Of a stretch of 21,264 nt of DNA, positions 1-12,976 are shown one piece after another (position 1 is the stretch's first letter; every line of letters starts with the position of its first letter). The notes under the pieces were generated by a model. It did no database searches, was not told where the DNA came from, and saw only the letters and a program-made list of their open reading frames with translations. The position numbers and the translations under genes were made by a program. The stretch is from a virus, in IMG/VR virus record IMGVR_UViG_3300034104_001894, positions 1-21,264 of that record; one strand, 5' to 3'.

Positions 1-785
1 ATTAGTCTGCCACAAGTTAGGTGTAAGTAGCAAATATTATCAAGGATTGCAACCTTGTGAGAGTACAAATTAAATTGTAATACATAGGCATAAGACTACA
101 GTTGTAGTTATAAATCCATACAGAGTTTAATTAACTCCAAGGTGGTATAGTTATGTCTGGTTTGCTAACACTTCAATCATTTAGCTAATGATTTGTGGAA
201 ACCACTATACATTTTACGCTTGTTAATGGAAATCTACATGAAAGTAGTATTCTTACTGAACCTTCTTATTAAAAAGTCCCTAGACTTGTAGGTTGTGTAA
301 AGGTAACAATGTATATGTATTACAATTTATATTAATGCACCATTCCTGATTCCCAAGGTCAGGCAGTTGTAATATTTATACTTTAGTAATTAAAGATAGA
401 TTAATCACACCTAAAATAATACACTTGATGTATATACTAATAGGTCAATGAAGTAATTAAGCTTGTGAAAAAGTGGTATTACAACTGAGTGCAGAGGGGT
501 ATTTAACCAAGTATAAAGTGAGGCAAAATCCGGAAACCTCTTAGAGTATAGTTAGACTGCAGATAACTGCTATATGCTCATATACGATAAAATCTGCTGA
601 AATGAAGGTGTCAGCATACTTGGTTTTTTAATGCACCACTAGTTATAATATGTAGATGCCGAGTATACAGGCATAGGTTGTAATACCCTCTAGGAAAGTA
701 GTTATGCTCTAATATTCTCATAGTAGTATAAGAAACATAGTCCCGGAAGAATAAGAGAAACTACATGTTATAACTGGTGCATTAT
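1..785 (+). ncRNA. Candidate large structured noncoding RNA (multi-domain)
   Basis: No convincing reading frame exists here, but long complementary arms define successive domains. A perfect 16-bp helix pairs 71-86 with 314-329. An 11-bp helix pairs 364-374 with 477-487. A 10-bp helix pairs 505-514 with 616-625. A 24-bp helix pairs 629-638 and 642-655 with 761-784, broken only by a 3-nt bulge at 639-641. Smaller hairpins sit inside: 41-57, 95-108, 123-137, 274-287, 420-434 and 656-674. In the longest helix one pair is U-G if the + strand is transcribed but an A-C mismatch on the other strand, which favours a + strand RNA. Size and architecture recall ornate phage RNAs such as ROOL or GOLLD, but I cannot match it to either. 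The RNA may begin before the window. Confidence 0.6.
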
Positions 786-1560: not shown

Positions 1561-1592
1561 AGGAGCCGGGGAAACTTGGCTCCTTTTTTATT
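1561..1592 (+). terminator. Intrinsic terminator after the lipoprotein gene
   Basis: AGGAGCC at 1561-1567 pairs with GGCTCCT at 1578-1584 and is followed by a run of six T. It separates the 1157-1538 unit from the gene that begins just downstream. Confidence 0.8.
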
Positions 1593-3120: not shown

Positions 3121-3230
3121 GGTCCCATAGCTCAGTTGATAGAGCGGAACCTCTGAAAATGTAAAGGATAGCCTGTTAGGGCATGCAATACATCAGGTTC
3201 AGGTCACAGGTTTGAATCCTGTTGGGATTA
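3121..3230 (+). tRNA. tRNA-like gene with a 44-nt anticodon loop
   Basis: The cloverleaf is clear. The acceptor stem is 3121-3127 with 3223-3229, including two G-U pairs. The D arm is GCTC/GAGC at 3130-3145. The anticodon stem is GAACC/GGTTC at 3147-3151 with 3196-3200. A normal AGGTC variable loop follows, then the T arm ACAGG-TTTGAAT-CCTGT at 3206-3222 and discriminator A3230. No CCA is encoded. The anticodon loop is 44 nt instead of 7 and contains an extra hairpin, ATGTA/TACAT at 3159-3163 with 3189-3193. The base at position 33 is C, not U, so I assign no amino acid. It could hold a tiny intron, or be a tRNA mimic or decayed tRNA. Confidence 0.7.
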
Positions 3231-3274: not shown

Positions 3275-3298
3275 AGCCGGGAAAGACTGGCTTTTTAT
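3275..3298 (+). terminator. Intrinsic terminator after the tRNA-like gene
   Basis: AGCCGG at 3275-3280 pairs with CTGGCT at 3287-3292 through a GAAAGA loop, with one G-U pair, followed by five T. It would end the transcript carrying the structured RNA and the tRNA-like gene. Confidence 0.75.
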
Positions 3299-5337: not shown

Positions 5338-5372
5338 GAGAGAGTGTCATTAGTGATGCTCTCTCTTTTTAT
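5338..5372 (+). terminator. Strong intrinsic terminator
   Basis: GAGAGAG at 5338-5344 pairs with CTCTCTC at 5359-5365, with an inner TCAT/GTGA extension and five T afterwards. It closes the 4827 gene as a single-gene transcript. It ends only a few bases before the first possible start of the next gene. Confidence 0.85.
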
Positions 5373-7863: not shown

Positions 7864-8804
7864 ATGAACAGGCAAGAAGTCCAAGAAGAAGCAATCAAAG
7901 CTACAGAGGGTAAACAACGTGTTTCAGTGGTACTTGGCACAGGGGTCGGCAAGACCCTTGTTGGCCTAACTCATATAGAGCAAAACACTACAGAGTTGAT
8001 GCGGTGCCTTATTGTAGCACCAAAGAAAGCAATCTTCCAATCATGGAAAGATGATGCTGTGAAATTTGGTAAACAAAATTTATTAGGTAGAATGGTATTT
8101 ACTACTTATCTAAGTCTGAATAAACATAACCCTAATGATTATGATGCTGTCTATTTGGATGAGATGCATAGTTTATTAGATAGTCACCGGGGATTCTTGC
8201 AGTTATACAAAGGCAAGATCCTCGGTCTTACTGGTACTCCACCAAAGAGAGACTATTCAGAGAAAGGTAAGTTAGTAAATGAATTCTGTCCTGTGGTATT
8301 TACATTTAAGGCAGATGATGCTGTAGAGAGTGGAATACTAAATGATTATCAGATCATTGTGCACCAATTGAGATTAACTGATCAGAAAGTATATCCGGTC
8401 AAAATGGGTAACAGACAGTACATGGCATCTGAGATAGATAACTATACTTATTGGTCTAGAAGATTAGATGTAGGGTCAGGAAATGTTCATATGATTAGAG
8501 TAATGAGAATGAAAGCATTAATGGATTATCCTAGCAAAGAAAGATATACTAAAAAGCTAATGGAAAGCATTAGTACAAAGTGTATCATATTTGCTAATAC
8601 TCAAGCTCAAGCTGATAAGTTATGTAAATATAGCTACCACAGCAACAACAAAGAGTCTGAAGATAATCTTGAAATGTTTAAAGCAGGTAAGATTACTAAG
8701 TTATCTACTGTACTGCAGTTAAATGAGGGTGTGAACATCCCAAATCTTAAACAAGGTATCATTATGCATGCATATGGTAATGAGAGAAAAGCTGCACAGA
8801 GGAT
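7864..8804 (+). CDS. SF2 DNA helicase, exon 1 (residues 1-313 plus split codon 314)
   Basis: This is a DEAD/DEAH-like superfamily 2 helicase. Motif I is GTGVGKT (residues 25-31), Ia is VAPKKA (51-56), II is LDEMH (98-102), III is LTGTPP (122-127), and motif V is QLNEGVNIPNLKQGII near 284. The frame reaches the start of motif VI (AAQR) and then runs into nonsense. Joining base 8804 to 9901 restores the motif as QRIGRLLR and yields 364 residues, so the gene is split by a group I intron. The helicase probably unwinds DNA or remodels replication or recombination intermediates. Confidence 0.9.
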
Positions 8805-9900
8805 AAAAATACCTGTCCTCTTTAAATCCCTTTAATTGTCTGGAAAGCTAAGGAGAAATCTATGCCAATCAGCAGCCAAGCTTAAGCAGTCCGCTTATGA
8901 AGGTTCAGAGACTATCTAGAAATAGAGTACATGTAATTAGCTACTACATGGAAACGGGGGACATTTGCATAATTAAATATTTTTATCTACCTTTACTTTG
9001 CATATATACAAAGAAATGGGAGATATAAAATACAAACTTTATTCATTAAGTGATGAAACTGGTGTTAGATATATTGGGATAACAAAACAAAAGTTATCAT
9101 ATAGACTATCTGGACACTTAGCATCATGTAGACAAGCATTTAAAAATAAAAAGTCTAGACATTATAGACATTGTTGGATAAAATCTTTACTTGATAGAGG
9201 TATCAAACCTACAATGTCTTTAATAGCTGAATTTAATTCTTCTGAAGAGGTAAAACAAGCTGAAATTAATACTATTAAGTTATATAAAAACTTAGTAAAT
9301 GGAACAGCTGGTGGAGATGGAGTAAGAGATTATAAATTTAGTGAAGAATATCTAGAAACTAAAAGATTTAAAGTAGATCAATATGATTTGCAAGGAAATC
9401 TTTTAGCAACATTTAAAAGCTTGTCAGAAGCTTCATTAGTAGTAACAGGAACTGAAAAATATAATGGAAAAATTTCAGCTGTTACAAAAGGGAAACATGG
9501 AAGGAGAACAGCTTTTGGTTATGTATGGAGAATACATGGTGAACCATTTGACAAATATCCAGTTACTCCTCAAATAAATATTACTGAAGCACAAAGAAAA
9601 GCAATAAGTATGAGACAGTTGGAAAATAATGTAATGAAAGGCAAGTTAGGTTTACAAAATGTTACAAGTAAACCTGTATTAATACTAGATACTGAAAATG
9701 TAATATTAAATATTGCAGAATCTGTCAGAGAAGTATCAGAACTTACTACATTATCAAGAAGAACAGTTTCAAAATTGCTTAAAGGAAATAAAGATTTTGC
9801 TGGTTATAAACTAGCATATGCAAATGAAGATATAGTCCAATCCTTACAGAAATGTAAGAGTTCAACATTAAAAGCTTTTGTTGGACAAATTTATGCCTAG
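8805..9900 (+). mobile_element. Group I self-splicing intron in the helicase gene
   Basis: The 5' exon ends in T8804 and the intron ends in G9900, as the class requires. The internal guide GTCCTCT at 8815-8821 pairs with exon bases AGAGGAT at 8798-8804, with the usual U-G at the splice site. TACCT at 8810-8814 pairs with the first exon-2 bases AGGTA, forming P10. Core elements are P (AATTGTCTGGAAA, 8834-8846), Q (AATCAGCAGCC, 8867-8877), R (GTTCAGAGACTA, 8903-8914) and S (AAGATATAGTCC, 9827-9838). P7 is GACTAT at 8910-8915 with ATAGTC at 9832-9837. The endonuclease gene occupies the P8 region between R and S. Confidence 0.93.
9016..9900 (+). CDS. GIY-YIG homing endonuclease within the intron, 294 aa
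   Basis: The GIY-YIG fold spans about residues 5-100: YSL at 9-11, YIG at 19-21, R30 and H34, a catalytic Glu in QAEINTIK at 83, and N95 in LVNGTAGG. Repeated DNA-binding modules of NUMOD/IENR type follow: VDQYDLQGNLLATFKSLSEAS, GKISAVTKGKHGRRTAFGYVWR, and KPVLILDTENVILNIAESVREVSE. It should cut intronless helicase alleles to spread the intron. I start it at ATG 9016; an in-frame TTG at 8998 is weaker. Its stop codon TAG is the last three intron bases, and codons for NEDIV encode the ribozyme's S element. Confidence 0.9.
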   Translation: MGDIKYKLYSLSDETGVRYIGITKQKLSYRLSGHLASCRQAFKNKKSRHYRHCWIKSLLDRGIKPTMSLIAEFNSSEEVKQAEINTIKLYKNLVNGTAGGDGVRDYKFSEEYLETKRFKVDQYDLQGNLLATFKSLSEASLVVTGTEKYNGKISAVTKGKHGRRTAFGYVWRIHGEPFDKYPVTPQINITEAQRKAISMRQLENNVMKGKLGLQNVTSKPVLILDTENVILNIAESVREVSELTTLSRRTVSKLLKGNKDFAGYKLAYANEDIVQSLQKCKSSTLKAFVGQIYA

Positions 9901-10054
9901 AGGTAGGCTATTAAGACTAAATCCAGATGATAAAGCTATTGTCCACATACTATGTTACATGGATACTGTAGATGAGAAATGGGTAAAAGAGGCATTAGAA
10001 AACTTTGATCAGACCAAAATTATTTGGAAAGATTTTAATATTTCATTATATTAG
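9901..10054 (+). CDS. SF2 DNA helicase, exon 2 (C-terminal 51 residues)
   Basis: Exon 2 supplies the third base of the split Ile codon, then GRLLRLNPDDKAIVHILCYMDTVDEKWVKEALENF and a stop at 10052-10054. This completes motif VI, including the arginine finger region of SF2 enzymes. It has no start of its own and shares no frame with the intron gene that reads over the junction. The ClpS-like gene begins 4 nt after the stop. Confidence 0.9.
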
Positions 10055-12263: not shown

Positions 12264-12458
12264 ATGCTTCACTTTATTAAATATCTAGTGGTATGGATAA
12301 GCCAAAACTTGTCCATACCCTTCTGGATGGTAGGTCATGTGCACCTGTCTGTAAATATTTACCAAGACATATATGAGATATTAGCATCATTTGGTATGAA
12401 TGTACTAGTTGCTGCTGGATTTATTATTGATTATTTAGAACAAAAAAAGAAGTTATGA
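12264..12458 (+). CDS. Small membrane protein, 64 aa
   Basis: ATG 12264 lies just after the barrel gene's stop, whereas an in-frame start at 12246 would overlap it. Two hydrophobic segments are visible, around residues 4-26 and 40-57 (FGMNVLVAAGFIIDYLEQ). It ends with basic residues (KKKL), so the C-terminus is likely cytoplasmic. A small membrane protein in a phage may serve in lysis or exclusion, but this is not shown. It overlaps the next gene by 4 nt. Confidence 0.6.
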   Translation: MLHFIKYLVVWISQNLSIPFWMVGHVHLSVNIYQDIYEILASFGMNVLVAAGFIIDYLEQKKKL

Positions 12459-12976
12459 AACAGAAAAAATGGGATGAGCTTCATAAAGAACTTGATAAGG
12501 CTTTAGATTCAGAGTTTGGTTCAGAGGAAGAACTTAAACTAGATTCTGTATTTGAAAATGCTAAATTAGCCCTTAGAAAGTATATTTCTGATAATAAAGA
12601 AAAGGTTGCTGATGATTTAAATGAAATGATAAAGAAAAGTAAAATAAAAACTATGAAAATAGAAAAGAAAAAACCCGGAGGACTGAGAAAAGTAAAAAAA
12701 CCTGTTATTACAGTGCTTAATCAAGCAGAGATTGATCTTGAACATGCTCAAAAAGTAATTACTGCAAGAAATGAGTGTATTGCAGACTTAGAAACTAAGT
12801 TAGATGAGGCTTATGTAGAACAAGAGCAAATGATTAAGGAACTAGACAAATGGATATTTCAAGTAATACATCATTGTGCTGAAGTAGAATCTAACACAGG
12901 TAGAATTACACTACATGATGTAGACTACTGTGTGGATTTAATTAGAAGAATAATGAAACATAAGTTTGTTGATTAA
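12455..12976 (+). CDS. Coiled-coil protein, paralogue of the 2154 gene, 173 aa
   Basis: The N-terminal part is a charged helical region with a basic patch (KKSKIKTMKIEKKKPGGLRKVKK, residues about 54-76) that could bind nucleic acid. The C-terminal 70 residues repeat the pattern of the 2154 product: LETKLDEAYVEQEQMIKELDKW, then ITLHDVDYCVDLIRRIMKHKF. The two share a C-terminal module but have different N-termini. Each lies one gene upstream of a copy of the same structured RNA. The function is unknown. Confidence 0.7.
   Translation: MKQKKWDELHKELDKALDSEFGSEEELKLDSVFENAKLALRKYISDNKEKVADDLNEMIKKSKIKTMKIEKKKPGGLRKVKKPVITVLNQAEIDLEHAQKVITARNECIADLETKLDEAYVEQEQMIKELDKWIFQVIHHCAEVESNTGRITLHDVDYCVDLIRRIMKHKFVD

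Follow-up and report, generated by a model that had tools for sequence, protein, structure and literature searches.

Two recurrent structured RNA modules, exchanged as cassettes and often located near start codons, in uncultured relatives of crAss-like phages

The left end of IMG/VR virus record IMGVR_UViG_3300034104_001894 carries a tandem array of seven domains, about 1.1 kb long, ahead of accessory genes. The window analyzed here is this entire 21,264-base virus record. Two of the domains, designated modules A and B, recur in far more than a hundred uncultured phages related to the crAss-like group, usually immediately upstream of small accessory genes. They are conserved folds, biased to the + strand, that behave as exchangeable cassettes, run in the same direction as the genes and often lie near start codons. 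They define new RNA families that are supported by covariation and absent from Rfam 15.

The initial annotation had described positions 1-785 as a gene-free region organized by four long helices, and all of these are present. A perfect 16-bp inverted repeat joins 71-86 to 314-329 (21 nt at 90%), 24 pairs join 629-655 to 761-784 (629-638/775-784, a 3-nt bulge at 639-641, and 642-655/761-774 with one U-G pair; contained in the MFE structure), and two further long helices are formed by 364-374/477-487 and 505-514/616-625. In 60 dinucleotide shuffles of 1-785, perfect repeats reached 13 at most (mean 9.7), and the + strand of this region folds with an MFE of -192.7 kcal/mol, compared to -170.7 +/- 5.4 for shuffles (z -4.1). 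Since the - strand also yields a low value (z -3.2), folding energy alone leaves the strand undecided. No ORF of at least 50 aa lies within 1-1156, in agreement with a gene-free 1-785. The proposed limits of the feature hold only in part: the helices do lie within them, but the structure continues to about 1127 (820-843/913-936 and 1062-1068/1120-1126), where a final hairpin (1062-1126) stops 30 nt upstream of the ATG at 1157. The contig start also truncates the feature on its 5' side, given that its module A match covers only model positions 36-101.

Comparison by blastn of 1-1160 with loci obtained through neighboring proteins yielded short, strong and spaced matches, and nhmmer resolved three conserved blocks at about 40-73, 330-373 and 475-501. 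Compact loci present a fourth block, UACUCUCAUCCAAGCAGG, upstream of the first and pairing around it. Pattern scans of IMG/VR recovered at least 119 stretches each, and covariance models were built for module B (R1) and module A (R2). Altogether, module A or B was located in at least 230 viral loci, counted as loci without deduplication by phage. In 18 records of 100-124 kb, R1 and R2 identified mostly one A and one B, adjacent and on the same strand, and neither module in 4 of the 18.

All domains of the window array lie on the + strand. Module A (1-66; R2 match of 38.8 bits, E 9e-8) retains its hairpin (41-45/53-57, with loop AUUGCAA at 46-52) and the 3' arm of its closing helix (58-65, UGAGAGUA), while the 5' arm of that helix and the UCCAAGCAGG block fall before the contig start. 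It is followed by a linker domain, X (71-329), which is closed by the perfect 16-bp repeat and is unique to the window in nhmmer searches, and by module B (330-501; R1 match of 88.8 bits, E 1e-21). Module C (505-625), whose closing helix 505-514/616-625 is part of the MFE structure, has relatives in L035, L281 and L266, located immediately 3' of B in the latter two. Module D (629-784), comprising the 24 pairs, has B-like ends (UAAUGCACCA and UGGUGCAUUA) without the pseudoknot tail and matches R1 weakly (E 0.23); a relative follows B in L119, and identical ends follow B in L011. Domain E (820-943) contains the alternative inverted repeats 820-843/913-936 and 847-861/929-943, and domain F (1047-1127) contains the hairpin 1062-1068/1120-1126. 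Among the loci compared, nhmmer detected no relatives of 71-329, 800-960 or 960-1150. The array gives way to an AT-rich, unstructured leader (1127-1156), with the spacing seen in A and B leaders, and then to the first ORF (1157-1390), which encodes a 77-aa protein kept in relatives and assigned to no known family.

The consensus of module A consists of UACUCUCA UCCAAGCAGG, a segment of variable sequence, CAAGG RUUGCAA CCUUG, and UGAGAGUA. Its closing helix covaries, as illustrated by the arm combinations UACUCUUG/CAAGAGUA, UACUCUUA/UAAGAGUA and UGUUCUUG/CAAGAACA; 99.8% of alignment cells are paired, and 8 two-sided changes are observed versus 0.4 after shuffling, a count reached by none of 500 shuffles. 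The inner hairpin hardly varies, so that its backing comes from conservation and fold. Its palindromic UUGCAA loop is invariant in 53 sequences, and in a search for diverged loops every exact M0 block tested was accompanied by the standard hairpin. One might guess that UUGCAA kisses the loop of another copy; this arrangement and pairing with the GCAG of the same module look alike in these alignments because neither element varies.

Module B folds into a three-way junction whose 3' tail forms a pseudoknot with a hairpin loop. Its consensus reads UAAUGCACCA, a P2 hairpin that has UUCCCAAGG as its loop, CAGUUGUAAU, a segment of variable sequence, and AUUACAACUG A GUGCA GAGGG. In the window, P1 corresponds to 336-340/489-493, P2 to 345-349/359-363 and P3 to 364-374/477-487; the P2 loop occupies 350-358, and 351-354 pair with 496-499. 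Unconstrained folds recover P1 in 15, P2 in 18 and P3 in 18 of 19 cases. In the alignment 97.9% of cells are paired and two-sided changes number 91, compared to 23.6 after shuffling and again beyond all 500 shuffles. Across the loci, compensatory changes affect the closing helices of the two modules as well as P2, P3 and the pseudoknot. The latter joins UCCC of the P2 loop to GGGR located 3' of P1 (tail GAGGG), and of 83 distinct parsed modules, 82, 83 and 81 have Watson-Crick pairs at its three core positions. Compensatory variants include UUCACAAGG/GAGUGG (loop CAC, tail GUG; L164 and L193) and UUCCAAAGG/GAUGGG (loop CCA, tail UGG; L164), with L267 as an uncompensated exception. Some B copies do not present this loop, and their tail pairs instead with a 5' extension of P1 (L195, L185).

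The structures in alignments A1 (module A) and A2 exceeded all 500 shuffles on every measure, although relatedness among sequences inflates shuffle tests of this kind. Slid controls and the pairs in which both partners have changed, 5 in A and 11 in B, favor genuine structures. The absence of covariation in homologs had been put forward as grounds for discarding an RNA at this site, and covariation is strong in both modules. Module B also informs on the strand: non-Watson-Crick cells in its P1-P3 comprise 41 G-U and 9 A-C, and this large excess of G-U indicates that the + strand is the RNA, as had been proposed.

The arrangement of the modules is variable. A precedes B in 91 cases and follows it in 9, but the two also occur apart, a small ORF separates them in 7 of 66 pairs (in L002 it encodes 70 aa), variable loops and neighbors are exchanged, and further recurring modules exist beyond A and B. 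One large discrete RNA as the unit of conservation is not supported: what is conserved are individual modules of some 80-200 nt, which shuffle and between which a small gene can lie. The 1.1-kb chain of the window represents a single local arrangement. Conserved frames with exchangeable loops indicate that structured RNA can evolve in phages as mosaic cassettes, in the same way as genes. A broader proposal, which we put forward tentatively and regard as somewhat unlikely, is that environmental crAss-like phages build long leaders from a combinatorial toolkit of interchangeable pseudoknotted modules, reshuffled by recombination together with accessory genes and possibly serving as a fast-evolving interface with host factors. 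The blocks might also be kept mainly as DNA, providing recombination boundaries for the swapping of accessory cassettes. Variable slots are shared singly, in a mosaic pattern, among loci, and sequence similarity between the window and its close relatives begins sharply at 1130-1135, as such linkers would predict; compensatory changes, the excess of G-U over A-C and the covarying partners of the B pseudoknot are not expected of a plain linker, and we deem this explanation very unlikely.

Other hairpin modules were noted at the same intercistronic positions: J precedes A, H is also found ahead of AT-rich leaders, and K lies just before B in some loci. Recurring hairpins of the J, H and K type are found at L002:4719, L204 (rc) 11382 and L182 (rc) 10333, among others. 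The fetched stretch of L015, a sequence 93% identical over 5.5 kb, contains module J and neither A nor B. Several B-type modules are arrayed within single contigs in L195, L281, L267, L180 and L129.

The position of A and B relative to genes suggests a role in cis. The nearest downstream ORF of at least 100 aa is on the same strand as B in 100 of 102 loci, and the nearest upstream one in 81 of 100; a strong terminator separates B from the next ORF in only 2 of 73 cases. ORFs starting less than 26 nt away are depleted (0 of 107 for A, with 10.4 expected; 2 of 145 for B, with 16.7 expected), and starts peak at 26-36 nt (14 versus 5.2 expected for A, and 18 versus 5.8 for B). Both modules often lie some 26-60 nt upstream of a start codon, and the leaders in between are 82-83% AT, even if ORF calling by ATG and length alone introduces some error in these spacings. 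A and B thereby mark start-codon-proximal positions in a very common order of phages. The same gene families appear downstream of B, of A or of other hairpins. Same-strand location, a short set distance and the scarcity of terminators are seen as a trend and not at every locus.

Location before start codons and invariant loop nucleotides would also suit a riboswitch or another specific regulator of the next gene. Association with a single gene function was not found: many unrelated families are represented among the genes downstream, and members of one family may follow different modules, making this interpretation extremely improbable. A gene encoding a DUF2828/DUF7788 protein lies closely downstream of B in five contigs (L010, L132, L185, L193 and L202). 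The protein was considered as a Ro60/TROVE-like partner of the RNA and set aside as a general one, since a protein search found it in just 1 of 21 records.

The leader RNAs of processive antitermination, HK022 put and Bacillus EAR, suggest a different function in cis, whereby nascent modules would modify RNA polymerase for read-through of terminators in the gene array. The position of the RNA at the head of an array and its co-direction with the genes are compatible with such a role, as are the same-strand terminators found farther down the window (1563-1582, 3275-3292 and 5340-5363) and the scarcity of terminators in the first 2 kb downstream of the start of the RNA. Terminators are nonetheless commonest upstream of the RNA rather than downstream, and antitermination does not need a spacing tuned to the start codon; we consider it improbable.

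The interpretation we favor, and to which we assign an even chance, is that A and B are structured, exchangeable, cis-acting leader or intercistronic modules that set AT-rich leaders for ribosome entry apart and protect mRNA ends or process them. The modules would be co-transcribed with their genes as leader or intercistronic elements, each forming a compact folded boundary that keeps the downstream ribosome-entry leader in single-stranded form and separates it from the RNA upstream. Judging from position and fold, the module may shield or process the mRNA end at this boundary, and recombination at conserved module ends would exchange loops, modules and genes. Strand, terminator scarcity, spacing, intervening ORFs and the variety of gene families all make leader or intercistronic modules a better fit than one fixed large RNA. 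Several observations run counter to a cis role: the mostly single A and B copies in the 18 long records are unusual for a general mRNA element and more reminiscent of an RNA gene, many B copies lie 100-500 nt from the next ORF or are followed by further modules, and the window array, at about 1.1 kb, is long for a leader. Owing to the single copy number and the many longer spacings, a processed trans-acting RNA retains some probability.

Such a trans-acting RNA would resemble GOLLD and ROOL, with A and B as the conserved body, cut from a longer transcript, and the variable modules as its periphery; self-assembly would perhaps proceed through the palindromic loop of A. One A and one B in most genomes, the predominance of A-first order, the lack of conservation among neighboring genes and the invariance of UUGCAA are all consistent with this view, and several loci carry a tRNA-Arg(UCU) gene no more than a few kb away, recalling the tRNA genes found near GOLLD and ROOL (PMC12286853). 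The occurrence of A and B apart or divided by a small gene, the missing terminator after B and the tight spacing to start codons argue against it, and we judge it unlikely.

GOLLD and ROOL assemble into homo-oligomeric RNA-only cages. GOLLD is a large phage RNA with many helices, frequently located close to tRNA genes, with variable beside conserved parts, and ROOL is phage-encoded, contains pseudoknots and lies near tRNA genes; the functions of both are unknown (PMC12286853). The window array is likewise large, many-helixed and phage-encoded, with variable next to conserved parts and a pseudoknot, and several related loci have a nearby tRNA gene, but its conserved units are small, separable modules directly before ORFs. 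Its suspected membership in these classes was not borne out by model searches, whereas the reported failure to match any known RNA was confirmed: cmscan of 1-1200 against all Rfam 15 families returned none at gathering or permissive (E<=10) thresholds, ROOL (RF03087) included, and the compact homolog L204 gave no credible match. For GOLLD (RF02032), the window record gave nothing at E<=10, and the score in a single one of eight related records was only 4.4 bits (gathering threshold 150); the ROOL model detected nothing in the window or in eight related records, with control genomes also unmatched. Group I or II introns were likewise dismissed for 1-1200, where no Rfam intron matched; the same library detects a group I intron at 8736-9022.

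The manA and wcaG motifs of cyanophages are also structured phage RNAs, known mostly from environmental DNA and thought to regulate genes (PMC2864571). The modules described here differ in having no Rfam match, in not preceding one kind of gene and in forming chains. In flaviviral exonuclease-resistant RNAs, a three-way junction located at an RNA boundary has a hairpin loop that pairs with a downstream 3' tail. Module B has a similar topology, with the loop contributed by another hairpin, and we claim no sequence relation.

The AAA protein of the window is 45-48% identical, and its DnaB about 27-31% identical, to those of named gut crAss-like phages, relating the window phage to the Crassvirales and upholding the initial placement of the RNA in a relative of crAss-like phages, where it heads an array of genes that run in its own direction. 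In ten gut Crassvirales records only marginal hits and no convincing module were found. One of these hits, a weak B-like match (17 bits) on the - strand of PV686213.1 (L307, a Bohxovirus of the Crassvirales; 73527-73647), has pairs that fit P1 and P3 by eye, with an E-value (0.04 over ten genomes) at chance level. Neither blastn of the window against 50,697 phage records nor blastn of a compact A-B locus in phages at E up to 1 produced a match to A or B, a scan of GTDB genomes gave a single pattern hit, on a short contig from a Lake Lanier MAG, and a search of open-licence papers returned no description of the modules. The two covariance models and the clear predictions that accompany them make module function directly testable.

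Elsewhere in the window, an insert in the helicase gene (8805-9901) is present in L018 and absent from the aligned L016, L017, L020, L021, L022 and L030; it carries a GIY-YIG/NUMOD1 ORF, and the Rfam Intron_gpI match at 8736-9022 scores 53.7 bits. The ORFs at 2154-2693 and 12455-12976 have C-terminal halves that look alike by eye. A tRNA at 3121-3230, detected by the Rfam tRNA model and missed by ARAGORN, has about 36 nt inserted in the region of its anticodon loop.
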